64,000 nucleotides of DNA from Antedon mediterranea. Its lineage: Eukaryota > Echinodermata > Crinoidea > Comatulida > Antedonidae. The translations under genes were made by a program, and so were the position numbers. Shown one piece after another: positions 12,684-59,984 of the stretch. Under the pieces are notes generated by a model. It did not search any database and was not told the origin of the DNA. It worked only from the letters and a program-made list of their open reading frames with translations. The stretch's first letter is position 1, and every line of letters starts with the position of its first letter. Location: positions 2,753,001 through 2,817,000 of the forward strand of contig NC_092670.1 in the NCBI RefSeq assembly GCF_964355755.1, read 5' to 3'.

Positions 12684-12787
12684 AAGTGTCTGGTAGTTCT
12701 TCTTTCAATGTTGTTTCATCTGCATCATCTTGAGTGCATACCGTTGTTGTTGCTATGGAAACAGTTATTACATGAATTGGATTAAAA
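12684..12787 (-). CDS. gene 1 exon 5: Roc G2 segment
   Basis: 104 bases with acceptor TTTTATAG and donor GTAAGT. It continues the P-loop exon in phase (RKG|FNP...) and keeps the G2 threonines in IATTTVCTQDD. Compared with gene 2's exon (HDITDAIATT), this copy reads HVITVSIATT, so the acidic and small residues before G2 are replaced. The frame is open to the donor. Confidence 0.75.
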
Positions 12788-15700
12788 CTATAAAAGAAAT
12801 GTGATTAAATTAAATATCGGATGTCAAAACGGACAAGAAAAATATGCTTTCTTGGTTAAGAATATTTGTGTCGTATTATATTATTTAAGCTAAAAAAATA
12901 TGATTTTTTACAGAAAAAGCAAAAATACATTAAATAGGTATTTATGAATTCTTGGTATCAATGTCCGATGACTTAATGTGTTTGGTTTAAGGTTACAGCC
13001 TTTCATCCATCAATTTCACACTTCAAAAAATGTTTGTATAATAGGTATGTCTGTATGTGGTAAAATGTCATGATAATGAAATGGTATTTTTATATTTTCA
13101 GTGTTTGTAATGTTCACAATTCAATTCAATTCATCAGATGGAGGCACATGCATATTTAGTGACATGGTCCTTTACTTTTTTGGCAGCTGGTAAAGATGTG
13201 TTATAATTTAGTAAAATGTATCTTACATAAAACGTAAATAATAACCTTTAAACAATATTTTAACATAAAACTAAAAGAAAGTGCAAATACTTCTTTTTGA
13301 GAATTGTATTTTATTGTTACTTTATTTGAAAATCACTTTAAATTGTAATTTTATGTGTTTGCTATCTTTTGATTTGATAGTTTTAATAGATTTGCTTACC
13401 CTTTCCTTAACAAAGAATTGATAGTAGAAGTTTTTCCTACTCCTTCAAGACCTACAAAAATAACTCTACCCTGTTTAACTTCAGTTTTCCCTTCTTCCAG
13501 GGCTTCATTATATGCTTTAATTGCTTCTGGTCCTCGAGCCTGTATCTCCACAGGAGTTAAGTCTTGAAAACAAAAGTAATATAAATTAGTACACAATCAA
13601 TGTAATTTACCAAAAACATAAACTCAAAATACTATGACGATGCAGCGCATGGTCCTATTTTTTTTGTAATGTTAATGCACTAGTTTTAAATTGAAACTTG
13701 AAAATACCATAAAAATTGTAATGGTCTAATGATAGGGCAACTACATGAGGGCTTTATCCAGAATTTGGCAAAAGGAATCTTGCCTGTTTCGATAGTTGGT
13801 GTCATCTTTTGATCTTGTAGGGTAATTACTGGTTGTAGGGAGAATGTTGACATATCCCTTTCACACCAAAAGAACTCCAGAGTTCAAAACAGCGGGGTTG
13901 AACAGCTGAACGTTCTCCGGAGGGTGAACTGCAGGGACACACCGGTGTTTTGGTGTGAAAGGTACCAACATCAAATTTTTTAAGTCAAAGGGTCATCCTC
14001 ACAAGATCAATCATTGCTTTAGTTTTAAGTTTAAAAAAATATATAGTGGGATTAAAAAATAATAAATAATAATAATAAGACTCATGAGACTTTTGAAAAT
14101 AATTATTAAATTAAAAATATCCTCAATTAAAATGATTCTAATGATCGTCGCTATGTAAACAAACAAAACAGAGGGCGAAATATACAATTTTATTTTATAA
14201 ACCCCCCCCCCCACCCCTACTGTAACAGGTATGCTTATACCCAAATACTTGAATGATTTATCTGCTGAATTGAATCTGAGAAACCCATTAAAGGAAAAGC
14301 TGGAATGATATGTGACCATGCTATAAACAGATGAGTCACCTCATCCAAGTGGTGGGAAAATGGTCATGAATATTTAGTGTATAATGTTTCAGTATGGGTC
14401 AGTTCATAAATGGACAAAGGATTTTGTTAATTGATTACATTTTTAATAGTTTCTTTTTTTTTGTATAACCTAACTTTAAATTGATAATTACATGTGTATG
14501 ACTCGAGTTACAGTAATCGCTCTGTAAACCCACAAAAATGTTATGGTAAATGTATATATACCATTGGTTAAAAATTGTCATAGTACCCAACTGGGAATGG
14601 ATGACACTTACTAGTGCCTAGCCCAAAGTGAATCATCTCCTTCCGAGGTAAGCATCTATATTTTTATCTCTCTCAATTTTAGAATTGTTATACTATAGTT
14701 AATATAGTTGATTAGTTATTTGATTGTTATACAGACACACCGCAATAGTAGCCTACTATACACTGTCGTTAATGATACGATCGATTGATTACTGATTACT
14801 GATATGTTATTTAAATAGTAACACTGTTTTTGTTATATCTCCTTCCGACTGGTTACTAATACTAGCTTCAATAAAAGAATTTAACTTTTCCAAACCAAGA
14901 ACTGTTTTGTGGATGATTTTATTGTGTTTGTGCCAGTGCTGCAGCTCCAGAAAATACTACGCGATACAGCTACGACGCTAGTAGTACGAACCTGTTACAC
15001 TAGGTTGGTGTAAATGGGGTATCTCCGGAGTTTCTCAACGTTTTGATGGTCACAAACCCAGGGGTGTCTCCGGAGATCACTCCAGAGTTTTGGTGTGAAA
15101 GGGGTATAAGAAGGACTAAGGCTTCGTTTTTATTTAAAGTACTTTTAAAGCAAAGGTACAGGCATGAATTTTAAATATAATATCTGGTTAATTGTACATA
15201 AATCAAATATTTGTAACAGAAATCAAGACGAAAAACATGAATTTCCCTTAAAAATGGTCAAATACAAAATTTAACAAAATTTTGCTATAAAAACCAGGAA
15301 GACTTTTTTTCAGTAGTTAGGTAGTTTAACCTAATGTAATAACATGTCTGGTGACTCCCTAGAAGGTGAAAAAAGAGGGTGGATATATGGTGGATAATTT
15401 TTGCTATAGCATGAAAATAAAACTCTGAAGTTGAATAAAAATACCAGAAACGTAACATTATAGATCGATAATAATTATTGGAATGTACAGACGTATGTTC
15501 AATAGAAATTTTTTGCCCACACCTGGCTTGTAAGAATAGAGCCTTTTAACATCTGAAAGGCTCATTTTTGTGTAAAAAGCTTTTACCAGCCCTGCTTGGT
15601 AAAGTTTGCTGCTTGGTTTTAAGGATTGTATTTGACCAACTCCACACCATTTAGCAAATTTTATTGTTCGGTGATAGAAAGTGTTTTAACCTTGTCTATT

Positions 15701-21700: not shown

Positions 21701-24700
21701 GCCACACCACGGAGAGTCGGAGTGTTATAGGGATTTACTGTAGCCTAGATAGTCGTTGCGCGAGCGAGAGAGCGATGGATGAAACTTGGCCAATGCCATA
21801 CATGAATTAATAATTAAAATATGACTACGCCACGCGTTAAAATAATTATAATGATATTAATAAGTATCAGTATCTATCTAAGAATCGTAATGCAGTTTTT
21901 AGCGCTGTCTTCCCGAACAGTTTTTTCACATCCACGCGGTGGCTGCCGTCAACAAAATCAACTTGTGATTGCATGTTGTATGTACAGTATATAATGCGTT
22001 ATACACTTTTGCAGCATTTACTATTTATAGAATAAAAATGTTATCTGCACTGAATAAGCCAGTGGGTAAATTCATTTAAAAGCAATATGTTATATAACAT
22101 TGAATGTGAAACATATAACAATAAAGAAACAAGTATAGAAAAATGGGTAGCTTTAAGAAATAAGATTATGATAATATAAATTCTAATTTGATACGATTAA
22201 CCGAAAAGGAATTACAGTGATACGGGTTACTGGTGGTACTGAGCTATTATTGTTTTTTTTTTTTATCATGTATATAAATATATTGTATAATCCGGGTTGT
22301 AAAATGAAAACAAACAAATGAAAATGTGTGAACTATTTTAAAACGAGATAGATGATAATGATGATCCTGTCAAGTGTATAACAAAATATAAGAAAATTAA
22401 TGAAAAAAGGAGTAATACAGAATTCATATATGTAAAAATGTTACTTATGAACTGTAACGACATTTACAAGTTAAATAATACGATTTTATGTAATATGAGA
22501 TAATATGAATGTGAATAAAAGTGGTGTTTGCGCCACAAAAGAGAAAAAAAAAAGTATCAGTATCTATCTAAGAATCGTAATGCAGTTTTTAGCGCTGTCT
22601 TCCCGAACAGTTTTTTCACATCCACGCGGTGGCTGCCGTCAACAAAATCAACTTGTGATTGCATGTTGTATGTACAGTATATAATGCGTTATGAAAAATC
22701 ATAAAACTAGTCATGTAGGCTATAATTATATAATTCATATGATATGAATTTTATATATGAATGAAGCAACCACTTTTTAATTACAAAATAAATACTATAG
22801 GCCCACTGGTCACGTAGTCTAACTGGTAGCCCTAGCCTAGATTATATTAGTGGATCCCATATTAGAAGAAGGCATCTAGGCTAGTTCGCCGTGTGGCGCA
22901 GCTTCCAGCTATGAAATAATCCATCGCTGTTGATAAGTATAGAGTCGCCGATTACCTCGCTCTGGGCATGCGCAATAGCGTGTCGGAATCCCTAACGCTG
23001 GGCAGTTGAGTTCCGGTGCCGGAATCCTAACCACGGCGTATTATTAACATATCCTCTCTATGATGGATGATGGATACTACACAGTATTCACTTTTAAATT
23101 TTCCCAGGTATTTATTATTGCTGTTTATTTTGTCGCTAGTTTAAAAAAATGTTTCCAGCAATGCATCCATAAACAATATAATAATTATCAGTATCAGAAA
23201 CCAGTTTATTAGTTTATAATAAAGTTTTTTTTTTCCTACCTTTATTGTCGCATAACATTTTTTTAACACAGTTAAATGACGTAATAAATGAATTAAAATT
23301 GTTAATTAATGAATGGTTTCTTAATATTGGTAAATGATTTTTGTTATTGGTTTGCTTCTTCTTGTTTGTTGTTTAGTTTAATTTACTGTTTAGGAGTTCT
23401 GAATTATTGTAAACTGTTTTTGTTTTTAAACCAAATAATAATATCGGTCTCCCTCTCACTCTTTGTTATAAAATAGTTAATTGTATGATAGTTAATGAAG
23501 TCTTTTTTTCTGTACAGTATTGAATTGTATAGACGGAATTATAGAGGGTGACAAACACAATTTGTAATACATCGGAAGGTAGTGTCGAACAGAAAATAAA
23601 GATGTTCACTGCCGGCCGTATCCTGTTCACTTTTATTGTAGTAAAAGTACTAAAATCTCCTAAAACCGTATAAAGTATCAAAGTGTTGTTATAATTTCTT
23701 GCCATTTAAATTCTGCCTCAATAACACAAAAGGTTTCATACCCGTCGACTGCATAGAGAGTATGCAGTGTTTAAATGCCATGATGAGAGGGAACATGGAC
23801 AAAATTAGTCTCCTTGTTCTAATTATTTTGTAAATGTTGTTTTGTGTTTTAGTCTGTAATGTAAGAATTTATATTGTAACTTAAAGTTCACATGGTAGTT
23901 AGTAGTAGTAGTTTTTGTAGATTATTATTGACTCTTTTTATGTAAGTCAGTGAGCAAGCGTTGTAAATGCAGATTAAAAAAATTAGGCTTCTGCTATCTC
24001 TGAGAGTAACATAATGTAGGCTTACTTATGTAAAATAGTAACCAATGCTTTTACATTTTTAAGCTTCCTATTACTGTATCATTGTTCATGTGGTCAAGTT
24101 AAACATATCAAAAAGGACTTTATTTCAATATATTGAAAGTTTTAATAACAGAAGCCACTAACCTGTTTCTGATTTACCCTCTTTTCGCATTCCTTGTTCT
24201 TCATTACTACTGGTTGCCACTTGTCCTGTTTAATAAATGACAGGACAAAATCTAAATTTACAATGATATTCTATACCTCTTTAAAAATATTATTGGGAGC
24301 ATTAATTCAACATGAATATGTTTCATTATGTATAAGAAACTAACATAACAAAATGCACTAATTAACTTACCTTCAGTCGAAGGTTTCACTCTTGATTCCA
24401 GTCCAATCTTTCTTAGATCGTTAATAAACTCTTCTTTTCTTTCTTTACAAAGTATGTTTCTGTTCTCCAAATCCCAAATCATACTCCAAGCACCTTCGTA
24501 ATTCTTTGCGGCACTACCATTGTACAGAGCATCAATTTTGTCAATATCTTCTTTTCCCAGTGCAATTCCTAAATTGACAATCCAGTGTCGATATGGGGCG
24601 AAATTTGTAATCTTTATTTCTTGTACATCGGGAAAAGATCGTTGGAGAACTTTGATGACACCAAATGTTTGAGTTATTTTGATTGTTTGGTAAAGTAACG

Positions 24701-25003: not shown

Positions 25004-25029
25004 TGAAAAATAGAAATGTTGTAATTAGG

Positions 25030-28500: not shown

Positions 28501-28507
28501 TTTAGTC

Positions 28508-40348: not shown

Positions 40349-40393
40349 TTTCTGTATTGCTTGATGGTCCAGCTTCACTTCTTGATTGTTCAA
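40349..40393 (-). CDS. gene 2 linker mini-exon (VEQSRSEAGPSSNTE)
   Basis: 45 bases, phase 1-1, acceptor TTTATAG, donor GTATGT. It encodes VEQSRSEAGPSSNTE. It is the same length and has the same donor as the exon at 46,349-46,393, and related (decayed) copies lie at 39,784-39,828 and 26,738-26,775 (opposite strand). Confidence 0.65.
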
Positions 40394-46300: not shown

Positions 46301-49300
46301 TCATCATTGCCTCTTTACGTATAATGTTATGGATAATTTAAAACATACTTTCTGAAAGGCTTGGTGGTCTACCCGTTATGCTTGATTGGGTCTCTGTAAA
46401 ACCAAATTGTATACACAGTAGTTCACACTTTTGAAGCTAAACCAGTTTCTCAATTACCATTCATTACAAAAAGTAGTACTAATATAGAATTTGATGTGCA
46501 TAAGAAAAAGAATTTCTTTATTGCAATTTTGAAATTTGTTTAATCTGGATAGAATCCAAACTATTAAAAGAACTATTAGAATTATTAGTGTTAATTGGAG
46601 ATTAAGGAATGGTATGCTGGAAATGATTATTATTTTATCTGTATGTAATACAGTTTTATATTATAATAGTAAAGTCATTTGTGTAGGCTCTGAAAATTCT
46701 TAGTAGAGTAGAGTTACATTTGAGGGTACCACTGTACTGATGCTTAAAATAACTAAATTATAACATACCCAAGCCTTGATTTGGTATTCCAAGTCTCCCT
46801 GCGAAAGTAAACAACAAGACTCTTTAGCTTTGATTGAACGGTCTTTGTTTGCTGTAACCACATTTAATTATTGAAAGTATTTCCAGTTGATCTGTGCTAT
46901 GACAGCAAGATTAAGAATAATTTAATTTGCTAACATATGCTAAGAACTGCTGGCAATCAAACAAAACAATCTTTGTACACTGTATCTCTTCCCATGGCCC
47001 TCAACCGAAAGCTGTAGTTTAATACTTACATTCAAATGGTAACTGGTATATTTGGTATCGTGTTTGTACTGTTAATATCTTTGCCTTAAATACATCTTTT
47101 CGTGGATCCTTTCTTTTTACAGAAAATTTGCTCCACGTTTTTGCTTGCCATATTTCATTAAATCTTACATTCTGTAAACAAATTTACCTCTTTTACAGAA
47201 TTTAAAATGAAAGTAGGATAAAATATTTAAAGAAAGTTTAGAGTTAATGACAATGCCTAAAGTCTATGTAATGCCTAGCTTTCCTGGAAAAACTGTTAAA
47301 TAGCCTATTTTTCTTGAAGAGCGAAAATTCATCAACCACCCTGGCAAGTTCAAATCTGTTTTACTTCTGTTAATATTAAAATTATTATACCTGTGTTGGT
47401 GGGGTTACATCCCATCCTTCATCTTCTTTTTGTACTGTAATGTTCATATCGTTGTGCAATAAATCTATGCATTTTGGCATTTCTATGGCCGTCTCCCCAT
47501 ATTCTTTTTCCTCGCTCAATACCCTCTGAAATATGAATAAAGTATATCAGAAAACATTACATATTCTGTAGTGCATGTGTGCTTCAGCAGTGGATTTTTT
47601 ATTTTATAACACACCTGATTGTATTCTTGCAATTTGATTGATCAATTAGGCATCACGTTTCATTTTGAATTTGCCCTATCTAATGAAAAAGTGATATCTA
47701 CAGTAATGGTGATAATGAACGACTCTAATGCATGTTCAGCTTTGTGTAAACATTAATTGAGATTTTTTGCCATGCAATGTTGACTGATTCAGATCGGAAA
47801 TCAACTTGCTGGGTGTGCCGTCCAAAACTGTTCTACTCCACGTCTAAAGTTGACTGCCTTTTTTAATTTCCCTAGCTTCCCAGCCTAGCATCGTCAATGA
47901 TTTACAATGGATAACTTGAATAAAAGTAGGGGTGTTATAAAACAAATAATGAATGTTTGTATTCGTTGAATGGAGAGAATATTTCATTTGTTGAAAAATT
48001 GATTTCTCTATTTAACGAGGCATAAACATTAATTATTTGTATAGTATCTTAATTCAAAATTATTATATAGTTATAACATCAACAACATTACCGTTTCTTC
48101 CTCGCTGTCCCAGGTTCTTACTCGAAGTTGTAATTCATTATTCAGCACTTTTCCAAATACACCTAACATTACTCTCTTTTTAGCATAACAAATATTTTTT
48201 ATAACAGCTACAAGAAGATAGTCAGAAAAATGGTTTAAACGTATACAACATTGACCCTTGTGTAAAGAAAAGGTTATGTCAACTTCATTTCTGTCCAGTT
48301 TTATTTTTTGCCATTCTCCTTGACTGGATTTTTTAACAAGTAAAGTGAATTTCCAACACTCTTCATTTACAGCATTATGTGGAAATGACAGCAAGCAGTG
48401 GTTTCTAAACACTGTGCCTGGTGGTCCACATCTAACAGCAGATGAAACTATTGTTTCAAGAGGATTAGATAAAGAAACAGTAGGAAAGGAAATGTTCTCT
48501 AATGAGACTTTAACATTCTTTCCTTCTTCAATTGCTCCAGGATTTATCACCAATTTTATGTCTTTATCCTTAAGATAGAGAGTTCCACCTTCAGAGTTCA
48601 CAATTAACTCCATAATTTGACCTGTGGGATGAAAATGTTTAGCATTATTTTATTACTTTTATTATTGGTTTATTTATTAACAATTATAGTAACTGCCAGA
48701 GAGGTTTACAATGTCACTGGAACGTTGTGCCATAAAAAAAATACCTATTAGTTTAGTTTGTCTTTATGAAGTTAGTTTACCATTTTAATTGACTATTTTT
48801 GTGTAAATGCTATAGCTATACCTGGTTCCGATTTAACATTTTTATGTGTTTCTTGAAACTCTTCAATGCTGATCAATGACTTCTCAGGTGATTTATGGAA
48901 TGAACCTGTTTTATAAAAGAATAATGATAAATAACTGAACAAAATAGTCACTTGATCAGCCAGTATATAGTACAGGATAGATTTGAAGGACAATTTTGAA
49001 GGTGGGTTGGAAAAGAGGCTGATGGCTGGGCTTTCTAGAGCATTAGGCATTTCTCTCCCTTAGCAGAATCAGTCCATTTCAGGTGAAGAATATATATATA
49101 TATATATATTTCGATATACATTTTACTTAAGAATTAAATAACTAAAATTTATGATGATTAAAAAGTATGTTATGCCTATGTTTTCTTTCCTGTGTGTGTG
49201 GTATTTCCATCAAGTGTGTGCCACAATTGTTTTGAGGTAAACAATTGACAACAAAATAGGACATTTTAAGAAAAAAGTAAAACTGAGGCGGTTGAACATG

Positions 49301-52300
49301 GCATCTAAATGAAAGACATCTTGTGTTTGTATTGTATAACCTTGACTGGTTGAACATGTACTGTATTCGTAAACACATTTTCTTCCACATGACTCCAGTG
49401 GGATAACCACTACACATACCACTGTACATTTATAAATATTCACACAGAGTAATATCAAAGAAACTAATATGCCTAATTAATGTGTTTATCTTTCCTCTTT
49501 CTCTTCTTTCTTGGCCCTTGTATGTTTTCCCTGTAGTATTTAAAGCTCTCAACTGTGTTTTATCGATATTAAACATTACACATTTTTATGATGGTGGTCC
49601 TGAAATTTGTAATTAGTAATGTATACCTTCATCATCCTTGATCTGAATCATATTAGCAAGGTCTATTTGGCCATGATCATTTAGGGCAATACACAATACA
49701 TCAAGTTGATTCACATCATTACTTATCTTGTTCCTCCAATATATCATCATTTCTTCAGCACCATTAATTAGATTTTTACCAAACTCAACCACCTTTGACC
49801 AGCTAAGACCCAAATTATAACCAAACGGTTGCCAATCAACGATTTCCTCAGACACTTTTCTGATGGTTGGATCATCCGCATATCCTGTGATAAGGAACAA
49901 ATTCAGTGTTTACTTAAGCTATACAAGCTATATTATTAAACTGATAACATTAAAATTTATTATGATCTTTTAATTTTATTATGATGGAAAACCTATTAAA
50001 ACTGCTTACCTTCATTATGATTCTGTGATGGTTGTATAGCTATAAAAAACAAAACAAAAACATACAAATTTCAACAAACTGTGTACATATTTATTTTTAA
50101 TTAGTACTGTATCTCAACTTTAATCAAAACATCCAAATTAAACTGTAATTATCTCTCCTACAAAGTATTTTTTCACCCCTGTTTGTTTGCCTATTTGTGG
50201 ATTTATGTGTGCACAGTATAATAGGCCTCATTTTTATGCAATTCTTGACGGAATTTGAATTTGATGGGGCAGGGTCACATTTTCAACAACAAAAATATTT
50301 TATATAAATTTTTTACCGGTTACAAGCTACACTTTTTATCTGAATCTTGCAAAACAATGATTCAGATAAAGTAGTAGTTCAAATAAATCTTGGTAGAAGT
50401 ACAGTATGCACTCTCATAATGCTTTCTAGTTAAACAAATTATTTTGCATTGTGCCAAAACACTAAAACTATATTAAAAAACTTACTTTCATCTTGTGACT
50501 TTAAAGTTTCTATAAAATAAATATATGTAAATTAATCAATAATTTAATTGTACATTGTTATTATTTTTTGCATTTATATTTGATTATTCTGTAAAACTGT
50601 TGGAAAGTAGCCATTAGAAGTGTTCTCGTTTGTTTAGAGAAGGAAATCACTAAAAAAGTAATTAATATTAAGTCTATTTATTTATACTGTATAATTTATG
50701 TCATGCATTGAAAAGAAATGCATTTACCTTCAGGTAGTACATCTTCCCCAAACAATTTACGGTAAAGTTTAACTTCCATTTTATTGCTTCCACAAGGTAA
50801 CTCATCTTTGTCAAACTTGCGAATAAGATGCATATGAGCATTTTGAATGTTTGGACTAGATGCACAAGGGATGTACATCCTTACTTCAAGACCTCGGGCA
50901 TCCTTCTGACTGAATACTTTCAACTCTTTTTGAAGAAAATGAAGAACCTAAAAAACATATATATAACAATCATAATAATTTTCCTTTACTGTATGTACCC
51001 CAAGTGTTGAAAGATGAACAAGGTTCTTTAAAGTGCACTGGATCTCCAGTTTTAAACCCTTATTCAAGAAGACTTGTTCTACCACCAGGACTATAGTCAA
51101 GGAGTTCTTTGAATTTGTGTTTATTTTATAGGTCTGATTTAAAGCTCCCCTGCCTCTCAACAATTGAAGTTGTTCCTGTATTATCACTTTCATATCTACT
51201 AGCCTACCTTCTTACATACTTCAGGTAGTGGCTTAATGTTGTCTTCTAGAGAACTATCAGCCTTGATGCTTTTTGTTCTGACTATCGTTGTCTGCAATAT
51301 ACAATAATGAACCTTGTGAATGATAGTCTTGTATTTTTTTTAATAGATTACATGTTATTTCATTTGTCAGAGGTGAACACATTTTACAGATTATAGCAAT
51401 CCATACAATAGACATGCTCTTGATATACAATATTGTACAGATATATTTAAAAGGTTATTATGTGGTGAACTTAACCAAGGCATGGATTAAAGAATAGAAG
51501 GATATGCATCAGTTTGAGATCAAAGCTTCCATGACTCTAACCTACAGAGCGTGGACCGCCCACAATGTATACAAAGTAAACACAGTTTAATTAACCGTCG
51601 TAACAACGAAACAGTCGCGTGCCTAATATATTGTTTACTGCAAATGCTCAACAACCTTTAACCTTGTTGGCTATGCTTTCGCGCTCTTGCCTTGGTGGCG
51701 TGATTATTTTATATTTTTAGCGCTAGCTGCTATGGTGACGAAACAAACTTTATGCGAACAATATGATATATAATTCAAATATAAAAATTGCATATTTTAT
51801 TAATATTACCAACTACTTAAAATTACCAGTCGTAAGAAAGTGAACTTTTCGTAGTCCGATTGTGATGAAAACTGAAACAGAATTGTTCAGCAGTATATTG
51901 TTGTTGTCAATTAATCATCGATGCATGTCAATAGAACATTTGGACTGCGCATACGATTTCTACATGGCTACGTTTTATTCTCAAAAAATGTAACAATTGA
52001 TTCGCAGCGTGCTACAGAGGGCCGCAGTTAGAGACACGGAGTTCAATGAGCGTGTTTGTTTGATTGGCAGCATTGCTTTAGTATATATTGCAAGCACGTT
52101 GGAAAATCGTATGATATCACCGATGCATATCCGTCTATTCTTTAATCCATGGTCAAGGCAAACCTTTAGATAATTTTACCTTTCATAAATTGTGTTTTTA
52201 ATGTAGAAAATATGTGATTAAAATTGTTTTAATGAAAGTTATTGGTTATTTTTGGTGTAGAATACTTTGTAGATTATAGGCATTAAAATTTAAAAACTGA

Positions 52301-55300
52301 TGACATGGCACTGGGTCTTTTATTTATTGATTTTTCTACTATATATATTAAATACTGTACCAATTTTTAAAATGTACCTGTAACATACGGCAATGCTTAA
52401 TGGTAGCCACATATAGAATGACTAAATGTTCAGCATCAATATTCAATTCTACATGCTCATACGATAGGCGAGGTTCAAAATCTTCCATTTGGAATTTCTC
52501 AATGAATTTGGTTGCAGCACGTTGAAAGAGATCATCTGGAAGATAGCTACCAAAATCATGAAAGAGTGAAATTGCATACTTGTCTTCAAATTGGGGCACT
52601 GGTAAGGCTTCTGGTTTAAGACGTGAGAGAACGTAGAAAATTTGTTCGTCATTCTATAAAATGAAAAGGAATATGTCTAATAGATGGATAGTTTTGTAAA
52701 GAAGATTAATTTAATAGTTGAAGGCATTCCTGGTTTCAATATCAATACCTTTTTACTAGCACACATTAAACCAAACTTTTCCATTAGAGACACAAAGAAG
52801 TCAAAACTCTCAGAATCACAGAACTCTTTCCACAGATATTTTAACAAACCAACTTCTAAAATGCCAGTGTCCAGTCTTTGCCAAGCTTTCCACATTACTG
52901 GCTCCTATTAAAAAATAAATAAAATTCTGTGTAGTTTTCAATTAGTCAAATTATTTAGGAATATTTAATAAGGACATTAGTAAGAAGATTTTTTAGTAAC
53001 TCTGAATATAATTAGGATATTGAGAATATTGTTTCTTGTATACCTGTATATTTATTTGTACAGTTAAATACAGTATAACAAATTTCACAAAATTGTTATT
53101 GTAATGATTGTACACTGTACCTGTTGTTACTGAAGTAAAAATTTTTTTGAAATAAAAATCTTACTTTTTGCTTTTTAGCATGATGCATACTGAATTTATA
53201 TATTAGATACTAGAATAAGAATACAGATTGGAGAGAGCAGTGTCAAAATATTTATTTGCTAACCATATTTTCAGGCTCTTTAACAGTAATGAATGTTTTT
53301 GACATGTCAACTAGTTTCATCAAATCTATAACTATTATATCTCTTAGTGCCTCATCATCTGGGTAGTAGAGAATCTCGCCAATGTCATGTAAATACTCAA
53401 GCAGGAATCGCTGATTTTCTGTAACTTCACAGTCTTTTAGTAAAATGTGTACCTGTAAGAAAATAGGTTCATAATAAAAATTTACAATCTGAAATAACTC
53501 TAATTACTTTATTTTCATCATTTTTGTAATTAATTTATGAATTGCATTTCACTAAATGTTCATGAAATTTAGATGCAAGTGTCATGATTTATCTATTATA
53601 AAGCACTTTATAAATTTATAATATCATCAGTACAATGGAGATGCAACAGTACAGTCAAGTCTTTCCAAATACAGATCAAAATGGTAATAAATTTTTTTTA
53701 AAGCAAGTAATATTAATTCTTTATAAAATACTTCGTTTTCCATATTGCATTGATCATTTATAAAAATAATATTTGAATTTACAGAAGCGTGTTTTGCTTT
53801 TCAGTGTGTACCAATTTCTATGTTATTATTACATCAGCATATTTTTAAAACGATTATTTTCATGCTTGTATTTAACCTTAGAAGTTGATAAATAGATGTG
53901 CTCTTTTTTGAAGCTTTGGATTTCCTGCTGTCCTCGCAGCCATTTTATTGGTAAAGTGCGAATCATTTTTTTGGAAAAGTCCAGTATATGTTTCATGATG
54001 ACAGAAGCATTGCTCTGTTTAAATGGTACACTGTTTTCAATGGTAAAGATAGTTGAAAACACCATAGCCTCAAATGGTTTGTCTTTTAGGGCTTGCCAAA
54101 TTGTTTTCTTTATTTCTGCAATCTGAAAAGAAACAAATTATACATGTTTCATACATGATATTCATACAAGTTATCTGGGTGTCTCAACATTTAGAAATAT
54201 GGCAGTAAACATAATGAATGATCTTCCTGTTTTATACTAAAATAAAACACTGAAATTAAAAAATTGAATGGTGCTACCACTGTCAAGTGTTTCCCAACTT
54301 GACCCAAGTTGTGGCACAAAATTCATTAACAAATATCACTATTGTTTTTTTTTGCACCACCCTGTGTATTATTCACTCATTTCCGTTTCTCAATGGCAGA
54401 TCTTGAATTCACCTTTTGTTTCTTTTCTTCTTCATTTCCTTTAAGGTCATTTAAATGTGTACCTATAAGTAAGACATGAGGAAAAAGCAGACCGTCTTCT
54501 GTCTTTGCGTCAGGTCTACTGTTTGTGTATATAGAACGAATCCAAGAAAGAATGAACCCCAGATTTGTCAATCGATGTGGATATGTTTCACCCTAAATAA
54601 TACAATAGTACATTATTGACAACATAATAACATTTAAATCTCAATCTCTTTGGTCGACTATTTTAATGTACTTGTTTACTTGTTTCCGGAGCTCAGCGGT
54701 GCTGGGCCCTTAGTCGAGGCTAGGCTATGCCTATAATCCCCTCTTGATAATTACATCAACTCTTGAATATGGCGCAAATTTAATGTAGCGAGAGTTTTTA
54801 AATTTAATGTTTAAACTGAATAGACAGTAACAAGTTTGAGGCTTGAAGCAATTTCACCAGAAGAGAGGTATTGCTAACATTTTTTTAAGGAATGAAATAA
54901 TGTTAGTTTTCTTTAAGTTTGTTTAAGCTAATAGTATAAGTACAGTGTAATTGTGACCAAATTATAAGTATGAAAAAAAAAAACTTATTATAATACAACT
55001 TACAGTTGTTGGATTCAAAACCTTAGCTGGAACATTAAGATCATCACAAAGGTTGAATACTACACAAATAACAGCAAAAGATACCATGAAGATCTATGAG
55101 ATCAATTAAACAGTGACATTCAATTAATTGTAAAGTATAAAAAGATTCTTGACTATCAATCAAATTTAATTTTTGAATTGTCTTTGTGTTTCATAGTGTT
55201 TTACATTTAGATTAGGAAACGCCTTGTCTAAATTTATTACAGATTTACCATAGTACTAGAATTCTTAACAATAAAATTTTACTTGTTAATTTTTTTACTA

Positions 55301-58300
55301 TATATAGTGTCTTTTCCTAACCTTTGGGCGCGTTTATACAACACGCTATTACACGCATATTCAACACGCCTACGAGAAGTGTGTTGTATAACATCGAAGA
55401 GATTCCGTGTAATGAGATTTTAATTGCAAAAAAGGCTACTTGGCTGAATCCTAACATTTTGTGGAGACCCGGTTGCTGTTGGTGTGTTGGAAGTGTCCTC
55501 AGGGTATTGTTTTGACCTCTCGTTAAATAAAAGTATGTGCTGTGAAAATGTTGACCAAATCTAGTAGATAATTGTGATTTTTTGGCATATTTTAACCTAT
55601 TTAGCACTTAAAATTAACGCTAATCAAATGTTGGCATAATTTGGCAAAATGTAGCATAGTTTTATCCTAATTCTAAAACATTTTTTTTCTAATTTCAAAA
55701 GCAAATTAAAAAAATCAATAATTGAATAAACTAAATTTTAAACGAAATCATCCTTTATTAAAATCCTTAATATAAACTCATATTAATTCATAATGCATAC
55801 AAGTATATATACAACTTAGGATTATGAAATATGGTATAACACGGTATTACGATTTCATGTATAACTGCAAGGTTTTTGTGGGGTTGACCTCGGCCCGTGC
55901 AACACGCTAAAAATTAAACATGTGTTCAAATTTAGGGTGTTGTATAAACACAGCCCAAGTGTGTCTTAATAGATGACCTGTACACGTATAACTATCCCTT
56001 TACTCCTTTTCTCACAGAACTGTGTACTGGGAATATGTGGGAATAACTTATTACCATTCTAGTCTGATTTTCTGTCAGAATGGGTCATGCAGGCTCCATG
56101 CCAGCATCAGGTAGAATATCCAATATATACTAACTGAAAGTTAGTATACTGAATATTCCCAGCAGGATTGATTGCTATATGCTGGTAACAATGCTGGCAT
56201 CCATACCAGCATTTTACTTCCACGTCTGTGAGAAAAGGGCTTTGTGTAATAAAATGTAACCACTTTACCCGCTGCATCACATGATAAATTGGTTGTCCTC
56301 CAAAATCAGAGATGTTCATCACAAACTTGTCGCTTGTCGCCTTGTCTTCACTTCCTTCTTTCTGAAACTCAATCTCTATTAATTCTTCAATTTTTGAAGG
56401 AATCTTTGTCTGGTCATCACTTCCTTCTTTCTCAAACTCTATCTTTGAAGGAATCTTTGTCTGGTCACCACTTACTTCTTTTTGAAACTCAATCTCTATC
56501 TTTGAAGGAATCTTTGCCTGATGTTTTTCTTGCTCTATATTTAAAAATGTTAAAATATTGTACTAAATTCATAAAAATAAATTCATTAGTTAACAAGTAA
56601 AGTATCCAATATTATGTTTCTGAATGTAATATATCATTTGAAGGTTTGCATGGCAAAATCAAATGTTGTTATAAAGTTTGCAGTACAGCATGTTATATTT
56701 AGTTCTGTTGGGTTTCTCTACATTTCTATCAATATAATAATAAACTTTCTGTATGTACTTTTTATAGGCTTTTTATTAGGATAATTTATTATAGGATTCT
56801 AATTATTTTATCAATGGTAATTAAAATTAATAATTAAATGTAGAAAAATACATTGTCAGACAATTTCATTTTTAGAAATGAAAGTGAAAAGGATAAAGGA
56901 ACGACAGAATATCAACATTTCCAATGATTTCAGGTCCTGGATTTGTTTCCCTAATGATTCTACGCGGCTTTTCGTTTCCTGATTGAAAAAAGAGAAAGAA
57001 AACCTTGTCAATTAGTAAGAGGAGAATTTAGCACATGCCTCTTAAGATGTTCCTCTTTCAATGAGTTTGTTTTGAGAATAATAACAAATATATTTTCTGG
57101 TTAAAACATGAGCAGAGGTGCCTTGAAAATAGTAGGTCTAGTTATTTCGACACAGAGAGGCCCATAGTTTTAACAAAACAAACAAAAAATTGAAATAGGC
57201 AAAGTATATTTGTTTTGTATTATGGATCAAGCATTTGAAGAAACCAACTGTTCTAAAGTAAACTTCTTCTCAATTTAACCACCTCTTCCATCTTTTTATT
57301 TTATCCGTCAACGGTTATTTTTATTTCAATATGACATGAATACAGAAAAAGTTTACATGATAGACAACAAAGCAACTAGAATCATATTGAGGATCTACAC
57401 TAGAAGAATAAATTATTCTTGTCATGTATAAGACCCTTTTTAAACTAAAATAATATAGTTAGCTAAGTAAACATATAAAGAAAAAGAGACAATAAATAAA
57501 ATATCGAATAAGTGAGAACTAATTATAACAATAAATCGAATATCAAAGCCCAGGCCACAAGTCAGTCCATGTAAAATTCAGTGCTTAGTTTTGGTAGAGC
57601 AGACAGTGAAATATTAGGTGTGAAATGTAATAATGATATGCCTTGCACTTGAAATTTCTATAAATATTTTTGATTACCCTCATCCATTTTGCTTTCTTCT
57701 GTTTTAGTTGATTGTGCTGGATTTTCTTTTGACTGTTCTTCTATTCTGTCTTCTTTCACATGCTTCATGGGAGCATTTTCATAATTGCCATAAGCCTGTT
57801 TTGTAGATGCTGTTGCATTTTGTTTTCCTTTCACTTGTTTCACCACTTCTCTAGCAATTGCTTTCTCATACATTTTAGAAGCTTTAAAAAAAGTGTACAG
57901 TAGTTTGTTTTTGTATATTATTGTTTTTGTGTTTGTACACTATGAATATGTTAATTATTTATTAAAATGTTAAAAAGGAAGAAACACACATTTAATTGAT
58001 TCATTTGCTGTGCCAGCTCAGGAGTCGCAAAAGCAGGAAACATGAAGGACGTGTGGCTCCCTACAACAAACCAACAAATGCAATATTGTACAAAGCTTTC
58101 AAAACAAAACATACATCACACACATTTGAATAATGAATATATCCATGATAAATAAATCCAGTTCTGTGTTATAAATAAATAATTTAGGTAAAAAGAAGCA
58201 AGTTATCAATTTATTTAAAATTTGTTTGAATTGAAGTAGTAATCAAGAAATTGTATGTAAAACAAATTATATAAATAACATCCATAAAACAAGACAATAC

Positions 58301-59984
58301 AACTACATAATAAGATTAAATAAATAAATATTAAACAAGAATCATACATTGTCTCTAAAACAACACAGGATTTAACATGGGATTTTTAAAGCAATAAAAG
58401 AGAAAAAAAATTACTATTTAATCACGGTGGATTGATTTGAATATTAGCCACTTGTATGAACTAATTTTCAAAGTTTTATGTTTTACGATTGTCACCCAGT
58501 TTTATTTCATTAATTTATTTTTATTTATTTATTTGATTATTTTAATGATGACGACCATGACTTTAAGTTTGTCTCCAAACTTATTTTGGCCTCCTTCTGC
58601 ACTCTCGTATTTTTCTACTCTTGTAATTTTGTTCCTTGTAAATTTTAAATGTGTGTGAAGAAAAGCAGTTATTAGATTTAGTTTAAAATTTAGTTTCATC
58701 AAAGTTTTTGTAGTTTTTACTTGTTTTATATATATGGTTATTAACATTTTCCTTTTGTTTACCATTACAGCATAAATAATTGAATAATCACTGATTATGC
58801 AATACACCGGCCTGGCTTACCCTTTTCTGTATTTGTGACATATATATGAAGGTTAATGTATTTTTTTAAATCTTGTAAAATCAGTTATTATATTTTATAA
58901 ATAATGATTTTACTGAAGCCAGAAAAATATGGGTTTGTCACAAAAGAAATATTTGCATACTTGTGTCAGTAAATGTTGGTTGGTTTTGACAGTATACTTG
59001 GAATTATATGTGCTACAAACAATTTTTTTAACATCTATGGAACCATTATTTCATGCATCTTAAGATGATACTTACATGTGTCTGGTAGTTCTTCTTTCAA
59101 TGTTGTTTCATCGACATCATCTTGAGTGCACACCGTTGTTGTTGCTATAGCGTCAGTTATGTCATGCTTTGGATTAAAACTATAAAAGAAATGTTGATTA
59201 AATTAAATATCGAATGTCAAAAATGACAAGAAAAAATGCCTTCTTGGTAGAGAATACTGTATTTGTTTATACTACGTCATATTATATTTGTTAAGTCTAC
59301 AAAATATGCTTTTTTTGTAGAAAAGGCAAAATTACATTAAATAGGTATTTATGAATTCTTGGTATCAATGTCCGATGACTTAATGTGTTTTACACCCTTT
59401 CGTCAATCAATTTCACACTTCAGAAAAATGTTTGTATAATAGGAAATGTGGTAAAATGCGATGGTAATGAAATGGTATTTTTATATTTTCAGTGTTTGTA
59501 ATGTTCACAATTCAGTTCATTAGTGGAAAAAACGCTGGTTTTCAGACGGAGGCACACACATATTTAGTGACATGATCCTTTATTTTTCTGGCAGCTATTG
59601 AAGATGTTAAGTTGTTTATAATTTTGTAATGTGTATCTTACATATAATGTCAATAATAATAACCTTTAAACAATATTGTAACATGAAACTAAAAGAAAGT
59701 GCAAATACTTCTTTTGAGAAGTGTATTTTATTGTTACTTTATTTGAAAATCACTTTTAATTGTAATTGTATGTGTTTGCTATCTTTTAATTTGATTTGAC
59801 AGTTTTAATAGATTTGCTTACCCTTTCCTTAGCAAAGCATTGATAGTAGAAGTTTTTCCTACTCCCTCAAGACCTACAAAAATAACTCTGCCTTGCTTAA
59901 CTTCAGCTTTCCCTTCTTCCAGGGCTTCATTATATGCTTTAATTGCTTCTGGTCCTCGAGCCTGTATCTCCACAGGAGTTAAGT
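40349..59984 (-). CDS. gene 2: Roc-COR-Death-ZU5-UPA-death-fold protein (ROCO family)
   Basis: 25 exons with GT-AG borders and matching phases, about 1,396 codons from the first visible exon (59,984) to 40,349. Order: Roc GTPase (59,984-54,413), COR (54,122-52,378 and following), linker, Death domain (49,884-49,627), ZU5 (48,621-48,092), UPA (about 48,180-47,030), four small linkers, tandem death-fold exon (41,118-40,567), linker (40,393-40,349). ROCO proteins (LRRK, MFHAS1, DAPK1) are GTP-regulated scaffolds. ZU5-UPA-Death modules occur in PIDD, UNC5 and ankyrins. The first exon seen starts in phase 1, so upstream coding exon(s) are missing from my model. The stop codon is also uncertain: read-through of 40,567 gives TAG at 40,544, and splicing to 39,828 gives TGA. 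All G motifs and hydrophobic cores are intact, so it looks functional. Death or immune signalling in the cytoplasm is inference. Confidence 0.85.
40567..41118 (-). CDS. gene 2 tandem death-fold (DED-like) exon
   Basis: 552 bases, phase 1-1, acceptor TATTATTAG, donor GTAAAC. Two helical units: DWNEDDYNKLLVEVSDWW to about GVQDVIAK, and FSEYRRKLIAFGQKLHTENI to FIKLLTDEKM. The phrase PYDLISLLEGPGLLKAADI is typical of DED/Death helices 2-4. It is homologous along its length to gene 1's exon at 24,371-24,877. If the donor is not used, the frame stops four codons later (TAG at 40,546-40,544). It lies at the C-terminal end of gene 2 but at the N-terminal end of gene 1. Confidence 0.75.
41757..42630. 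repeat. CCGGACC/TTTTGG palindromic repeat clusters
   Basis: Clusters at 41,757-41,850 and 42,425-42,630 are built of AAAATCGGTCCGGCCGGACC, CAGTTTTGGCGGCC and similar units, so every unit is close to its own reverse complement. About 580 bases of unrelated AT-rich DNA separate them, as in a transposon with palindromic ends. Overlapping minus-strand frames (WSGL, FGRQ repeats) are artefacts. Confidence 0.7.
43096..43957. mobile_element. 862-bp MITE with 21-bp perfect TIR, TA site
   Basis: Ends ATAGAGAGAAATGGCGAACCG and its exact reverse complement, each flanked by TA (43,094-43,095 and 43,958-43,959). A subterminal GAGTGGGTATA/TATACCCACTC pair extends the symmetry. TA duplication plus short TIRs fits Tc1/mariner-derived MITEs. 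There is no transposase. Confidence 0.8.
45611..45691 (-). CDS. gene 2 linker exon, Pro/Ser-rich
   Basis: 81 bases, phase 1-1, acceptor ATTTTAG, donor GTACAG. It encodes APSTSSNLPRQPPQMDR followed by TDYACPLLS, a flexible linker between UPA-side exons and the death-fold exon. Confidence 0.7.
45838..45895 (+). mobile_element. LINE 3' end with (TTATC)n tail
   Basis: ATGACAATAAAGATTCCTC runs into TTATCTTATCTTATT on the plus strand, the same family of tail as at 845 and 12,124. It lies within a gene 2 intron, opposite to the gene's direction. Confidence 0.55.
46349..46393 (-). CDS. gene 2 linker mini-exon (ETQSSITGRPPSLSE)
   Basis: 45 bases, phase 1-1, acceptor TTTTACAG, donor GTATGT. It encodes ETQSSITGRPPSLSE. 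Similar in length, phase and pattern to 40,349-40,393 (both E-x-Q-S ... S-x-x-E), suggesting duplicated linker exons. Confidence 0.7.
46769..46798 (-). CDS. gene 2 micro-exon (WRLGIPNQGL)
   Basis: 30 bases, phase 1-1, acceptor TTTCGCAG, donor GTATGT, encoding WRLGIPNQGL. Small, but it fits both neighbours in frame and has good splice sites. Confidence 0.6.
47030..47171 (-). CDS. gene 2 UPA C-terminal exon
   Basis: 142 bases, phase 0 in and 1 out, acceptor TTTACAG, donor GTAAGT. It encodes VRFNEIWQAKTWSKFSVKR and then VFKAKILTVQTRYQIYQLPFE. The alternation of beta-strand-like stretches and its position after ZU5 fit the end of a UPA domain. Confidence 0.75.
47391..47525 (-). CDS. gene 2 UPA middle exon
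   Basis: 135 bases, phase 0-0, acceptor ATTTCAG, donor GTATAA. It encodes RVLSEEKEYGETAIEMPKC, then an aspartate/glutamate-rich EDEGWDVTPPTQ. The GW phrase near the end is common in UPA domains. Confidence 0.75.
48092..48621 (-). CDS. gene 2 ZU5 domain exon (with UPA start)
   Basis: 530 bases, phase 1 in and 0 out, acceptor CCCACAG, donor GTAATG. Residues of this exon: SEGGTLYLKDKDIKLVINPG (the ZU5 GG-L ... IPPGA-like core, here INPGAI), SSAVRCGPPGTVFRNHCLL (the CGP-G-F phrase of ZU5), and CCIRLNHFSDYLLVAV (the end strand H-F-S). UPA begins at KKRVMLGVFGK. Family members use ZU5-UPA to bind a Death domain intramolecularly. Confidence 0.92.
48822..48905 (-). CDS. gene 2 linker exon between Death and ZU5
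   Basis: 84 bases, phase 1-1, acceptor AAAACAG, donor GTATAG. It encodes FHKSPEKSLISIEEFQETHK and a short tail: a charged linker without a recognised domain. Confidence 0.7.
49627..49884 (-). CDS. gene 2 Death domain exon
   Basis: 258 bases, phase 1-1, acceptor ATCACAG, donor GTATAC. It encodes a complete Death domain: VSEEIVDWQPFGYNLGLSW (helices 1-2 with the conserved W and LG), EEMMIYWRNK (helix 4 W), VLCIALNDHGQIDLANMI (helices 5-6, L-x3-L-x2-HG-x2-DLA). Death domains form oligomers with other Death domains; the partner is unknown. Confidence 0.9.
50010..50039 (-). CDS. gene 2 micro-exon (TIQPSQNHNE)
   Basis: 30 bases, phase 1-1, acceptor TTTATAG, donor GTAAGC. A polar linker. Confidence 0.6.
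50158..50432 (+). mobile_element. degraded ACCTCCGCC-type element in intron
   Basis: CTCCTACAAAG, TTTTTTCACCCCTGTTTG, then GGGGCAGGGTCACATTTTC and the end CTCTCATAATGCTTTCTAGTT parallel the element at 36,554-37,118. It lies between two gene 2 micro-exons. Confidence 0.5.
50486..50509 (-). CDS. gene 2 micro-exon (ETLKSQDE)
   Basis: 24 bases, phase 1-1, acceptor TTTATAG, donor GTAAGT. Its size makes it uncertain, but the phases and splice sites fit both neighbours. Confidence 0.55.
50728..50947 (-). CDS. gene 2 exon after COR
   Basis: 220 bases, phase 0 in and 1 out, acceptor TTTTTAG, donor GTAAAT. It encodes VLHFLQKELKVFSQKD, LEVRMYIPCASSPNIQ and VKLYRKLFGEDVLPEG. It probably closes the COR-B lobe or begins the linker to the Death domain. 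Confidence 0.75.
51208..51291 (-). CDS. gene 2 exon in COR C-terminal region
   Basis: 84 bases, phase 0-0, acceptor TTGCAG, donor GTAGGC. It encodes TTIVRTKSIKADSSLEDN followed by IKPLPEVCKK. Confidence 0.7.
51300..52377. other. gene 2 intron, nothing recognised
   Basis: AT-rich intron, no element recognised. 51,480-52,150 is less AT-rich and has no open frame of note. Confidence 0.4.
52378..52653 (-). CDS. gene 2 COR domain exon (COR-B)
   Basis: 276 bases, phase 0-0, acceptor TTTATAG, donor GTACAT. It encodes NDEQIFYVLSRLKPEALP and then FHDFGSYLPDDLFQRAATKF, the characteristic COR-B phrase F-LP-GLF-R. It ends with a beta-rich stretch, LVILYVATIKHCRMLQ. Confidence 0.88.
52749..52904 (-). 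CDS. gene 2 COR exon (COR-A winged-helix part)
   Basis: 156 bases, phase 0-0. It encodes EPVMWKAWQRLDTGILEVGL then LWKEFCDSESFDFFVSLMEK and FGLMCASKK, matching the COR pattern G-L-...L-W ... LLE-FGL. Confidence 0.88.
53264..53452 (-). CDS. gene 2 COR exon (COR-A start)
   Basis: 189 bases, phase 0-0, acceptor CTTACAG, donor GTTAGC. It encodes LLEYLHDIGEILYYPDDEAL then RDIIVIDLMKLVDM. L-x-LH-x-G-x-I-x-YY...L-x-D-x-V-I/V-D is the signature of COR in ROCO proteins. Confidence 0.92.
53877..54122 (-). CDS. gene 2 exon joining Roc to COR
   Basis: 246 bases, phase 0-0, acceptor TTTTCAG, donor GTTAAA (weak). It encodes IAEIKKTIWQALKDKP, FSTIFTIENS (the Roc strand with a conserved N, in the G5 area) and TLPIKWLRGQQEIQSF, the LP..W phrase opening the COR linker. 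Confidence 0.85.
54413..54592 (-). CDS. gene 2 Roc G4 exon
   Basis: 180 bases, phase 0-0, acceptor TATTTAG, donor GTGAAT. It encodes FILSWIRSIYTN and LLFPHVLLIGTHLNDLKG. GTHLND is the G4-type (T/N-H/K-x-D) guanine-recognition motif, used as TH-x-D in Roc domains. Confidence 0.92.
55004..55093 (-). CDS. gene 2 Roc exon after switch II
   Basis: 90 bases, phase 0-0, acceptor CTCATAG, donor GTAAGT. It encodes IFMVSFAVICVVFNLCDDLN, the Roc strand FM-x3-A-x2-VV-F-L. It joins directly to the preceding DFGGQ exon. Confidence 0.88.
55322..55968. mobile_element. MITE with TTTATACAACAC inverted ends in intron
   Basis: Left TTTGGGCGCGTTTATACAAC and right GTTGTATAAACACAGCCCAA are inverted repeats about 25 bases long. 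The interior is AT-rich with repeated TTTGGCAT phrases. It lies between gene 2 exons at 55,093 and 56,269. Confidence 0.7.
56003..56247. mobile_element. CTTTTCTCACAGA-type MITE in intron
   Basis: Left CCTTTTCTCACAGAACTGTG and right CACGTCTGTGAGAAAAGGGC are inverted ends like those of the PIF/Harbinger-like fragments at 17,067 and 61,704. Internal GCTGGTAACAATGCTGGC and CATGCCAGCAT phrases are repeated. It has no ORF, so it may be mobilised by that family. Confidence 0.7.
56269..56534 (-). CDS. gene 2 Roc switch II exon with internal repeat
   Basis: 266 bases, phase 1 in and 0 out, acceptor AATATAG, donor GTAAAG. The end encodes VMNISDFGGQPIYHVMQR; DFGGQ is the Roc G3 (DxxGQ) motif, followed by the usual Y-H. 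The upstream part has three in-frame units of about 17-20 residues each containing KIPSKIE and EFQKE/EFEKEGS, joined by GDQ/DDQ. This low-complexity insert lies between G2 and G3, where Roc domains often carry a variable loop. Confidence 0.9.
57678..57864 (-). CDS. gene 2 exon in Roc variable insert
   Basis: 187 bases if the acceptor is at ...TATGAG, giving phase 0 in (to match the exon ending 57,990) and phase 1 out with donor GTAATC. A stronger-looking acceptor at 57,882 (TTTAAAG) would add 17 bases but arrive in the wrong phase. It encodes AIAREVVKQVKGKQN then a hydrophilic stretch rich in K, E, N and S (KHVKEDRIEEQSKEN). Confidence 0.65.
57990..58060 (-). CDS. gene 2 Roc exon between G2 and G3
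   Basis: 71 bases, phase 1 in and 0 out, acceptor TTTGTTGTAG, donor GTGTGT. With the incoming T it encodes WSHTSFMFPAFATPELAQQM then NQLN. It fits immediately after the exon ending DT at 59,076. Confidence 0.75.
58070..59075. other. gene 2 intron
   Basis: The lower part is AT-rich without recognised features. 58,873 upward is the gene 1/gene 2 duplicated block. Opposing open frames at 58,437-58,807 are shadows without domain content. Confidence 0.5.
59076..59179 (-). CDS. gene 2 Roc G2 exon
   Basis: 104 bases, acceptor TTTTATAG, donor GTAAGT, phase 2 in and 1 out. It encodes FNPKHDITDAIATTTVC then TQDDVDETTLKEELPDT. The threonines of IATTT provide the G2 residue. Paralogue of 12,684-12,787. 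Confidence 0.85.
59822..59984 (-). CDS. gene 2 Roc P-loop exon (first exon seen)
   Basis: 163 bases, acceptor TTTTCAAG, donor GTAAGC. It encodes LTPVEIQARGPEAIKAYNEA and RVIFVGLEGVGKTSTINALL with Walker A GLEGVGKTS. It enters in phase 1, so a preceding exon is required, but I find none between 59,985 and 64,000. Near-identical to 13,400-13,562. Confidence 0.88.

Follow-up and report, generated by a model that had tools for sequence, protein, structure and literature searches.

A ROCO-type gene with a candidate tandem-DED tail behind ZU5-UPA, in a genome-wide family of the crinoid Antedon mediterranea

We analysed a 64,000-bp stretch of the Antedon mediterranea genome (the window; C1:2753001-2817000) and searched the whole genome, 354 Mb in 18 contigs, for relatives of the genes that it contains. 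Positions are those of the window unless a contig is named, and other loci are referred to by L numbers. Two ROCO-type genes lie here, both on the minus strand. The larger part in the window belongs to gene 2, which extends from 59984 to 39824 in 21 exons whose compatible phases give the order Roc-COR-Death-ZU5-UPA-linkers-DED-DED-stop. Roc exon 1 (59822..59984, phase 1 in and 2 out), supported by its borders and by Pfam, carries the P-loop GLEGVGKTST. Roc exons 2-6 and an acidic insert occupy 53877..59179, on the evidence of borders, phases, the Pfam Roc match and motifs: 59179-59076, 57881-57678 (the insert), 56534-56269 (with DFGGQ), 55093-55004, 54592-54413 (with THLN) and 54122-53877. Four COR exons follow (53452-53264, 52904-52749, 52653-52378 and 50947-50728), identified by Pfam COR-A and by paralogues in L004, L006 and L018, and then a Death domain exon (49627..49884) matched by PF00531. 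The next exon (48092..48621) holds ZU5, an HFS site (LNHFSDYLLVAV) and the start of UPA, as indicated by Pfam ZU5 and by alignment to UNC5B; two further UPA exons (47525-47391 and 47171-47030) are indicated by the same alignment and by a Pfam UPA match below the cut-off.

Behind UPA we placed three linker exons, all of phase 1-1, at 46798-46769, 46393-46349 and 45691-45611 (tl2). The proposed tail is a tandem-DED exon of the type that we call DEDb (40567..41118, phase 1-1, identified by profile, AlphaFold and VIA-align; the 41-kb exon below), then a linker exon (VEQSRSEAGPSSNTE; 40349..40393, phase 1-1) resembling the one behind head DED pairs, and a candidate last coding exon (39824..39828), a decayed linker copy that encodes S-K and then TGA. 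An exon like this last one ends at a stop in the same codon in L017 and at a stop eight codons later in L020. A reading of exon 46798-46769 in phase 0 or 2 was dropped because its neighbours fit phase 1 only, as they do in L019 and L022. Also rejected was a 51-bp repeat (37649-38098) considered as a coding C-terminus: its 17-residue repeat frame is open in the window and L017 and is not open over any length in L018, L020 and L021, so we treat it as 3' flank. This repeat is a minisatellite of 8.8 copies, and it occurs with other copy numbers in the 3' flanks of several ROCO tails. Between repeat and tail lies a decayed DEDb-like remnant (38885..39102, minus strand), which resembles the end of a DED exon in L018 and has broken frames.

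AG/GT borders were checked by script for 19 of the 21 window exons of gene 2, and Roc4 and the last exon were placed from the sequence itself. Joined to two head exons from L012, outside the window, the model has 1505 codons with no stops and every junction in phase, and the codon after it, in the window, is TGA. The Death exon, the whole ZU5-UPA block, the linkers and the DED pair are each in phase 1 at both ends. A frame like the 198-amino-acid frame of the 41-kb exon occurred in none of 60 simulated windows (first-order Markov), the largest frame there being 189 amino acids.

The gene 1 part of the window begins with a candidate first coding exon, ATGGCAACAG followed by GT (24969..24978), which is conserved upstream of a second type of tandem-DED exon, DEDa. 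The same start exon is found in L013-L016 (with one change in L015) and, with one change, in L081; within the window it has a single match, at 24.97 kb, when up to two mismatches are allowed. The DEDa exon itself (24371..24877, phase 1-1) is identified by Pfam DED, AlphaFold and a caspase-8 match, and a candidate linker exon behind it (24163..24225, phase 1-1) by a five-locus alignment, with no evident counterpart in L014. Roc exon 1 (13400..13562) encodes protein 96% identical to that of gene 2 (dN 0.016, dS 0.136), and after Roc exon 2 (12684..12787) the rest of gene 1 lies below the window (L003, L004 and L017). An initial annotation of the window had described intact frames, GT-AG borders and compatible phases across about 25 exons of the two genes; this applies to gene 2, with its 21 exons, and to gene 1 inside the window only.

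Pfam searches of the 1505-residue gene 2 model found ZU5 (E = 1.2e-14), COR-A (4.8e-14) and Roc (1.1e-8) over their cut-offs, with Roc directly followed by COR as in other ROCO proteins, and UPA at the expected position below its cut-off (2.6e-4). The ZU5-UPA region of UNC5B aligns with that of gene 2 over 244 residues (E = 2e-12). The Death exon of the window scored 20.8 bits against a cut-off of 22.6 (E = 4.3e-4, PF00531). We aligned 19 of the 22 Death matches in the genome, 17 of them distinct and with C1:3264795, C1:2674213 and C5:13014564 left out, and PF00531 matched all 19 rows at E <= 0.1, the best at 3.2e-11; the closest solved match of the resulting profile was the death domain of PIDD (E = 9.2e-9), then THOC1 and RIPK1. 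The domain assignments of the initial annotation are thus borne out by these searches, with UPA and the window's Death exon matching below their cut-offs. Its statement that all Roc and COR motifs are present holds for G1 (GLEGVGKTST), G3 (DFGGQ) and COR-A but goes too far for G4. The consensus of G4 is THxD, and against it we read THLN in five of seven copies, gene 2 included, and THMD in two. The THLN variant makes GTP binding uncertain, and we count it against our preferred interpretation. No kinase or ankyrin match appeared at E <= 1 in the 1505-residue model, which may lack the start of the gene, and the same model gave no Pfam match to LRR or to a caspase domain.

We aligned DED-pair exons twice, once with 56 hand-chosen exons and once with 51 (some near-identical ones left out and L081 added). 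PF01335 matched 40 of the 56 exons at E <= 0.1; the 41-kb exon itself was not matched at that threshold, and DEDa was matched at E = 1.4e-4, below the cut-off. Compared with solved structures, the DED profile found caspase-8 (E = 1.3e-4) and then c-FLIP and FADD (0.003-0.004); as a single sequence, DEDa had no direct PDB match. AlphaFold modelled both exons with high confidence (pLDDT 92.1 and pTM 0.88 for the 41-kb exon, 92.5 and 0.87 for DEDa), and Foldseek ranked the tandem DEDs of caspase-8 and cFLIP first for both, with E values of 2.1e-3 for the 41-kb exon (TM up to 0.69, no match at E <= 0.001) and 4.0e-4 for DEDa. For the 41-kb exon we also ran VIA-align, which superimposed caspase-8 over 166-169 residues at 2.8-2.9 A with Z 16.8. 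Whole tandem DEDs of caspase-8, c-FLIP and the vFLIPs scored Z 12.5-16.8 there; the rows listed beyond DED proteins were only weaker FADD, CARD and other helical structures, with the CARD rows at 5.5 or less. From these models and the caspase-8 matches of both exons, the two pairs are predicted to be tandem DEDs of the caspase-8/c-FLIP kind, which agrees with their earlier description as paired death folds.

The 41-kb pair might end gene 2 or begin the next gene. It could be the N-terminal exon of gene 1, which lies downstream, with gene 2 stopping after UPA, and this was how a like linker and the 81-85% protein identity to head pairs in L005, L009 and L012, where DED pairs precede Roc, had first made it appear. 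The two copies of gene 2 described below also fall from 98.6% to 89% identity about 200 bp before the 41-kb exon. The exon in front of the pair and the flank behind it overturned that assignment. A tl2 exon followed by a DED pair stands after a ROCO C-terminus in the window, in its recent duplicate L011, in L021 and in L006/L020, in the last of which an insert interrupts tl2; with the window and L011 counted as one, these are three independent places. The 3.2 kb behind the 41-kb pair has counterparts, at 82-93% for the most part, behind the pairs of L020 and L017, although the L017 match misses the first 140 bases and belongs to a pair of another type. Partial counterparts are present in L018 (starting at 2.1 kb) and in L021 (the first 120 bases and the repeat region). 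The head pairs, in contrast, share with this flank only about 430 bases and a linker-like piece. Behind the L021 tail pair we found no linker match; this and the merely partial flank matches of L018 and L021 count against our interpretation.

Further points argue against a head of gene 1. The Roc exon of gene 1 is 27 kb away from the 41-kb pair, no start-exon match lies upstream of that pair in the window, and the tails in L011, L020 and L021 have no Roc within 100 kb downstream among the Roc matches listed. We therefore consider assignment to gene 1 very improbable. The 41-kb pair most probably forms the tail of gene 2, given that both the preceding exon and the 3' flank agree with those of other ROCO tails, and the proposal of a death-fold tail after ZU5-UPA is upheld. 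Judged by exon order, Death-ZU5-UPA-DED-DED also appears in a second branch of the family, in the near-duplicate loci L019 and L023, where UPA2, linkers, a DED pair and a linker lie inside 3.0 and 3.6 kb.

The initial annotation had placed the two pairs at opposite ends of the two genes, but this contrast is an artefact of the window. A DEDb pair with a linker like VEQSRSEAGPSSNTE lies upstream of Roc in L005 (on C3, at 1.4 kb), in L009/L010 (8.4 kb) and in L012 (44 kb). The last of these would be the head pair of gene 2 itself, at C1:2857312 (about 104 kb in window coordinates), and gene 1 has a DED pair after COR, below the window at C1:2729107 (L017). With a head-type pair upstream of gene 2 and a tail pair below gene 1, both genes are probably paired at both ends. 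We searched for a start exon for the head DEDb pairs and found none, and we count this, like the 44 kb between the gene 2 head and Roc, against our interpretation. In DNA, the gene 2 head pair is 95% identical to the C3 tail and 89% identical to the tail of its own gene, and in a tree of 12 DEDb exons and two outgroups heads and tails interleave, with several low supports. Instead of a two-gene locus with one swapped end, as had been proposed, the window is one stretch of a genome-wide family. The drop in identity before the 41-kb pair may be read as an exchange of DED cassettes.

The size of this family can be stated as lower bounds for Roc and DED exons. Our searches found at least 138 matches to Roc exon 1 (that of the window included; the best 150 of 159 candidates were scored), at least 84 to COR-A (best 150 of 188), 22 to Death and 51 to ZU5, and the union of two genome searches (best 150 of 346 and best 150 of 338) gave at least 210 DED-pair exons. 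Of these 210 listed pairs, 59 have a listed ROCO core exon no more than 15 kb away. In every case pair and exon share a strand, and none has an opposite-strand core exon within 15 kb; with random strands, 1000 trials gave a mean of 29.4 same-strand pairs and a maximum of 40. The core exon is on the 5' side of the pair in 49 of the 59, on the 3' side in 16 and on both sides in 6.

These counts bear on the alternative in which each DED pair is an adaptor gene of its own, DED-only and set within a same-strand ROCO array. Most of the listed pairs (151 of 210, both lists being incomplete) are more than 15 kb from any listed core exon, and tandem arrays of one orientation also yield same-strand neighbours, so that the strand excess would be expected under either reading; the bias to the 5' side would not. 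For the 41-kb exon, the compact UPA-linker-DED-linker arrangement in L019 and L023 and a COR-DED-ZU5 order spanning about 3.6 kb in L008 speak against a separate gene, and for the pairs as a whole we regard DED-only genes as unlikely.

For DEDa in gene 1 the same alternative is strong. DEDa relatives, at 60-87% identity, occur on several chromosomes with their own start exon, and many have no Roc nearby among the matches listed (members on C1, C2, C4, C7, C9 and C10), which makes a DED-only gene a live rival for the gene 1 head. Against it stands L081, where the start exon, a DED pair that is a 60% relative of DEDa and, about 1.5 kb further on, a Roc exon in matching phase lie within 2.3 kb, so the order start-DED-DED-Roc does exist. 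On this exon order we consider it likely that the DEDa pair at 24877..24371 is joined to the Roc of gene 1. The earlier claim that gene 1 places a death-fold pair before Roc is accordingly plausible from the L081 order and weakened by the frequent lack of a listed Roc in the DEDa family. DEDa-type exons are scattered singly, and some have equal scores on different chromosomes (C1:11829372 and C10:12304297), which gives the impression of a recent spread.

The locus shows signs of duplication and decay. Gene 1 is a broken copy, with an insert of 3.4-3.6 kb in each of two exons, Roc6 and COR4 (C1:2731.6-2742.7 kb; L004 and L017). The ends of the COR4 insert form an inverted repeat (365 bp at 96.7%, against 0 of 40 random intervals), as would those of a DNA transposon; in the 3580-bp Roc6 insert, the 400-base ends gave no inverted repeat at E 1e-3. 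Most of gene 2 is duplicated: window positions 41324-62300 correspond to C1:3256.5-3278.7 kb, about 0.46 Mb away, at 98.5-99.7% identity (C1:3264001-3267000 left out). Within this genome, that duplicate fits the description of the locus as recently built. The near-identical copy (L009/L010) lacks 4 bases of Ins1 and is therefore damaged, while the window copy is intact.

Such features might suggest a graveyard of decaying duplicates, with gene 2 unexpressed or non-functional. The interrupted Roc6 and COR4 of gene 1, the Ins1 frameshift, the decayed DED remnant at 39.1 kb and the split tl2 in L006 all favour this, but gene 2 of the window runs over its 1505 codons without a stop or frameshift, and dN/dS, computed by exon pair with a Nei-Gojobori script, was 0.12-0.47 in six Roc and COR exon pairs. 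We judge the graveyard reading to be quite unlikely, somewhat more so than DED-only genes. Values for the other domains were 0.62-0.63 for ZU5, 0.48 for Death, 0.37-0.80 for 15 pairs drawn from six DEDb copies and 0.36-0.55 for three wider DEDa and DEDt pairs. Three comparisons at dS 0.01-0.05 (DEDa with L013, DEDt between L019 and L023, and tl2 between the window and L021) gave 1.0-1.4, which counts against our preferred interpretation.

The interpretation that we prefer starts from the end of ZU5. We read this end in 25 of the 51 ZU5 matches (some near-identical, as in L019, L023 and L087, and one distant, L106 at 33%), and in all 25 it is H or S, then F, then S, C or T: HFS in 12, HFC in 8, HFT in 4 and SFT in 1. 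Five other columns of the 155 in the alignment also contain S, C or T only, although none has all three; what counts is the likeness to a known cut site, not column statistics. According to PMC3210808, PIDD is cut at HF/S, CARD8 and NLRP1 at SF/S, and the nucleophiles in such reactions are given as serine, threonine or cysteine. PMC7794386 reports that UPA lowers the threshold for CARD filaments.

On this basis we propose, with a probability of about 0.52, that gene 2 encodes a ROCO switch with self-cutting like that of PIDD, NLRP1 and CARD8, which would free a UPA-tandem-DED fragment to seed caspase-8-like filaments. The product would be a cytosolic ROCO GTPase of the order (DED-DED)-Roc-COR-Death-ZU5/UPA-DED-DED. 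Its ZU5 would cut itself between HF and S, as in those three proteins, and the N-terminal part (DED pair, Roc-COR, Death and ZU5) would stay bound to the C-terminal UPA-DED-DED. A trigger sensed by Roc-COR, or loss of the N-terminal part, would then free UPA-DED-DED; UPA would cluster the freed pieces, the tandem DEDs would form a filament, and the filament could recruit a caspase-8-like caspase or a FLIP-like protein. What we infer is transcription as one mRNA (most of all where the head pair is concerned), together with cleavage, the formation of filaments, control by GTP, the caspase target and the immune role. Cleavage is evidently not the rule of the family, since few of the listed Roc loci are near a listed ZU5 (34 ZU5 matches, the 17 weakest of the 51 having been dropped, against at least 138 for Roc).

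Candidate partners are present in the same genome: we found 33 exon-level caspase matches, eight of them in C5:22.03-22.14 Mb. In L084 (C5:22070001-22080000) a caspase-domain exon (7186-6135 of that locus, minus strand, E = 1.4e-43) has its end some 350 bp ahead of a Roc exon, and the donor and acceptor that face each other across this gap are both of phase 1; three Death exons follow COR. This exon has SDG and QAS where two other copies in the cluster have SHG and QAC, which we take to be the caspase catalytic motifs. With SDG and QAS the domain may be inactive and FLIP-like, and a FLIP-like gene of the order caspase-Roc-COR-Death-Death-Death is possible from the exon arrangement.

Among known proteins, NLRP1 and CARD8 resemble gene 2 in having ZU5-UPA followed by a C-terminal death-fold effector, with S, C or T at the cut position. 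NLRP1 carries a NACHT-LRR part. Unlike both, gene 2 has Roc-COR and Death in front, and its C-terminal fold is a tandem DED instead of their CARD, so that a cut would leave UPA-linkers-DED-DED where they leave UPA-CARD. PIDD1 shares HFS at the end of ZU5, UPA and a death domain (the best match of our Death profile), whereas gene 2 has one ZU5, no LRR match and a DED pair at its end. In both PIDD and UNC5 the death domain is placed differently from that of gene 2, where it precedes ZU5-UPA, and we count this against our interpretation. UNC5B is a receptor with a different domain order; its ZU5-UPA is alignable and has no HFS at the aligned place. Caspase-8 and c-FLIP likewise have two adjoining DEDs, which gene 2 encodes within one exon, but the gene 2 model has no caspase domain, and the C5 relative has its caspase-like exon before Roc.

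DAPK1 and the Trichoplax ROCOs share Roc-COR and a death domain with gene 2. The kinase and ankyrin repeats that precede Roc-COR in DAPK1 are missing from the gene 2 model, and compared with Trichoplax gene 2 adds DED pairs and ZU5-UPA, in a family of far more copies. For Trichoplax, with at least 17 reported ROCO genes, PMC4104024 describes ROCOs with CARD and death domains. The brown algal ROCO genes are alike in forming an enlarged set that varies by shuffling of same-phase exons: according to PMC11378527, there are up to 47 in one of four brown algae, the shuffled exons encode LRRs in phase 2 where ours encode death folds in phase 1, and animals have up to forty combinations of domains in ROCO proteins. 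PMC8195603 describes large expansions of DED and TRADD-N and fusions of UPA-ZU5 in other animals, as well as bacterial conflict proteins in which GTPase-COR is combined with variable effectors at the C-terminus. None of the papers listed in our search of the non-subscription literature pointed to a ROCO protein with a tandem DED and ZU5-UPA.

By its exon phases, the Antedon family seems to vary by the movement of phase-1 exons (DED pairs, linkers, Death and perhaps caspase-like exons) between genes and between ends. Among the chains built from the matches listed, one reads DED-ROC-COR-Death-ZU5-DED and one DED-ROC-COR-DED. The former, which is the damaged copy of gene 2, is the only one with DED pairs at both ends of Roc-COR-Death-ZU5. 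In L008 (C11:20704501-20714500) the DED pair between COR and ZU5 takes the place that the Death exon has in gene 2, possibly another exon swap. Since gene 2 belongs to a family with more than 100 similar pieces, it may be one of many switches for cell death or immunity. More tentatively, as an idea that we hold to be possible and somewhat doubtful, the crinoid might use a large ROCO-based immune or death repertoire instead of NLRs, with perhaps at least 100 Roc-COR genes, a self-cutting ZU5-UPA subset and same-phase exon exchange diversifying the outputs. If our reading of gene 2 is true, it would join three subjects so far studied separately, namely ROCO GTPases (LRRK2, DAPK1), the FIIND self-cleavage of NLRP1, CARD8 and PIDD and the tandem-DED filament of caspase-8, and would bear on what ROCO GTPases sense and on whether they can stand in for NACHT sensors upstream of caspases. 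The same reading would give a strong animal example of death-fold exon shuffling, comparable to that of LRR exons in brown algal ROCO genes. Predictions now exist for the cut site, the freed fragment and the effector fold, and they are open to testing by mutation.

The window also contains sequence of other kinds. A 549-residue open frame on the minus strand (30657-32303) has a reverse transcriptase domain (E = 6.7e-36), positions 9222-10084 hold pieces of RNase H of the reverse transcriptase type, and an open frame on the plus strand at 6655-7479 has a weak GIY-YIG match (E = 3.4e-4, below the cut-off).
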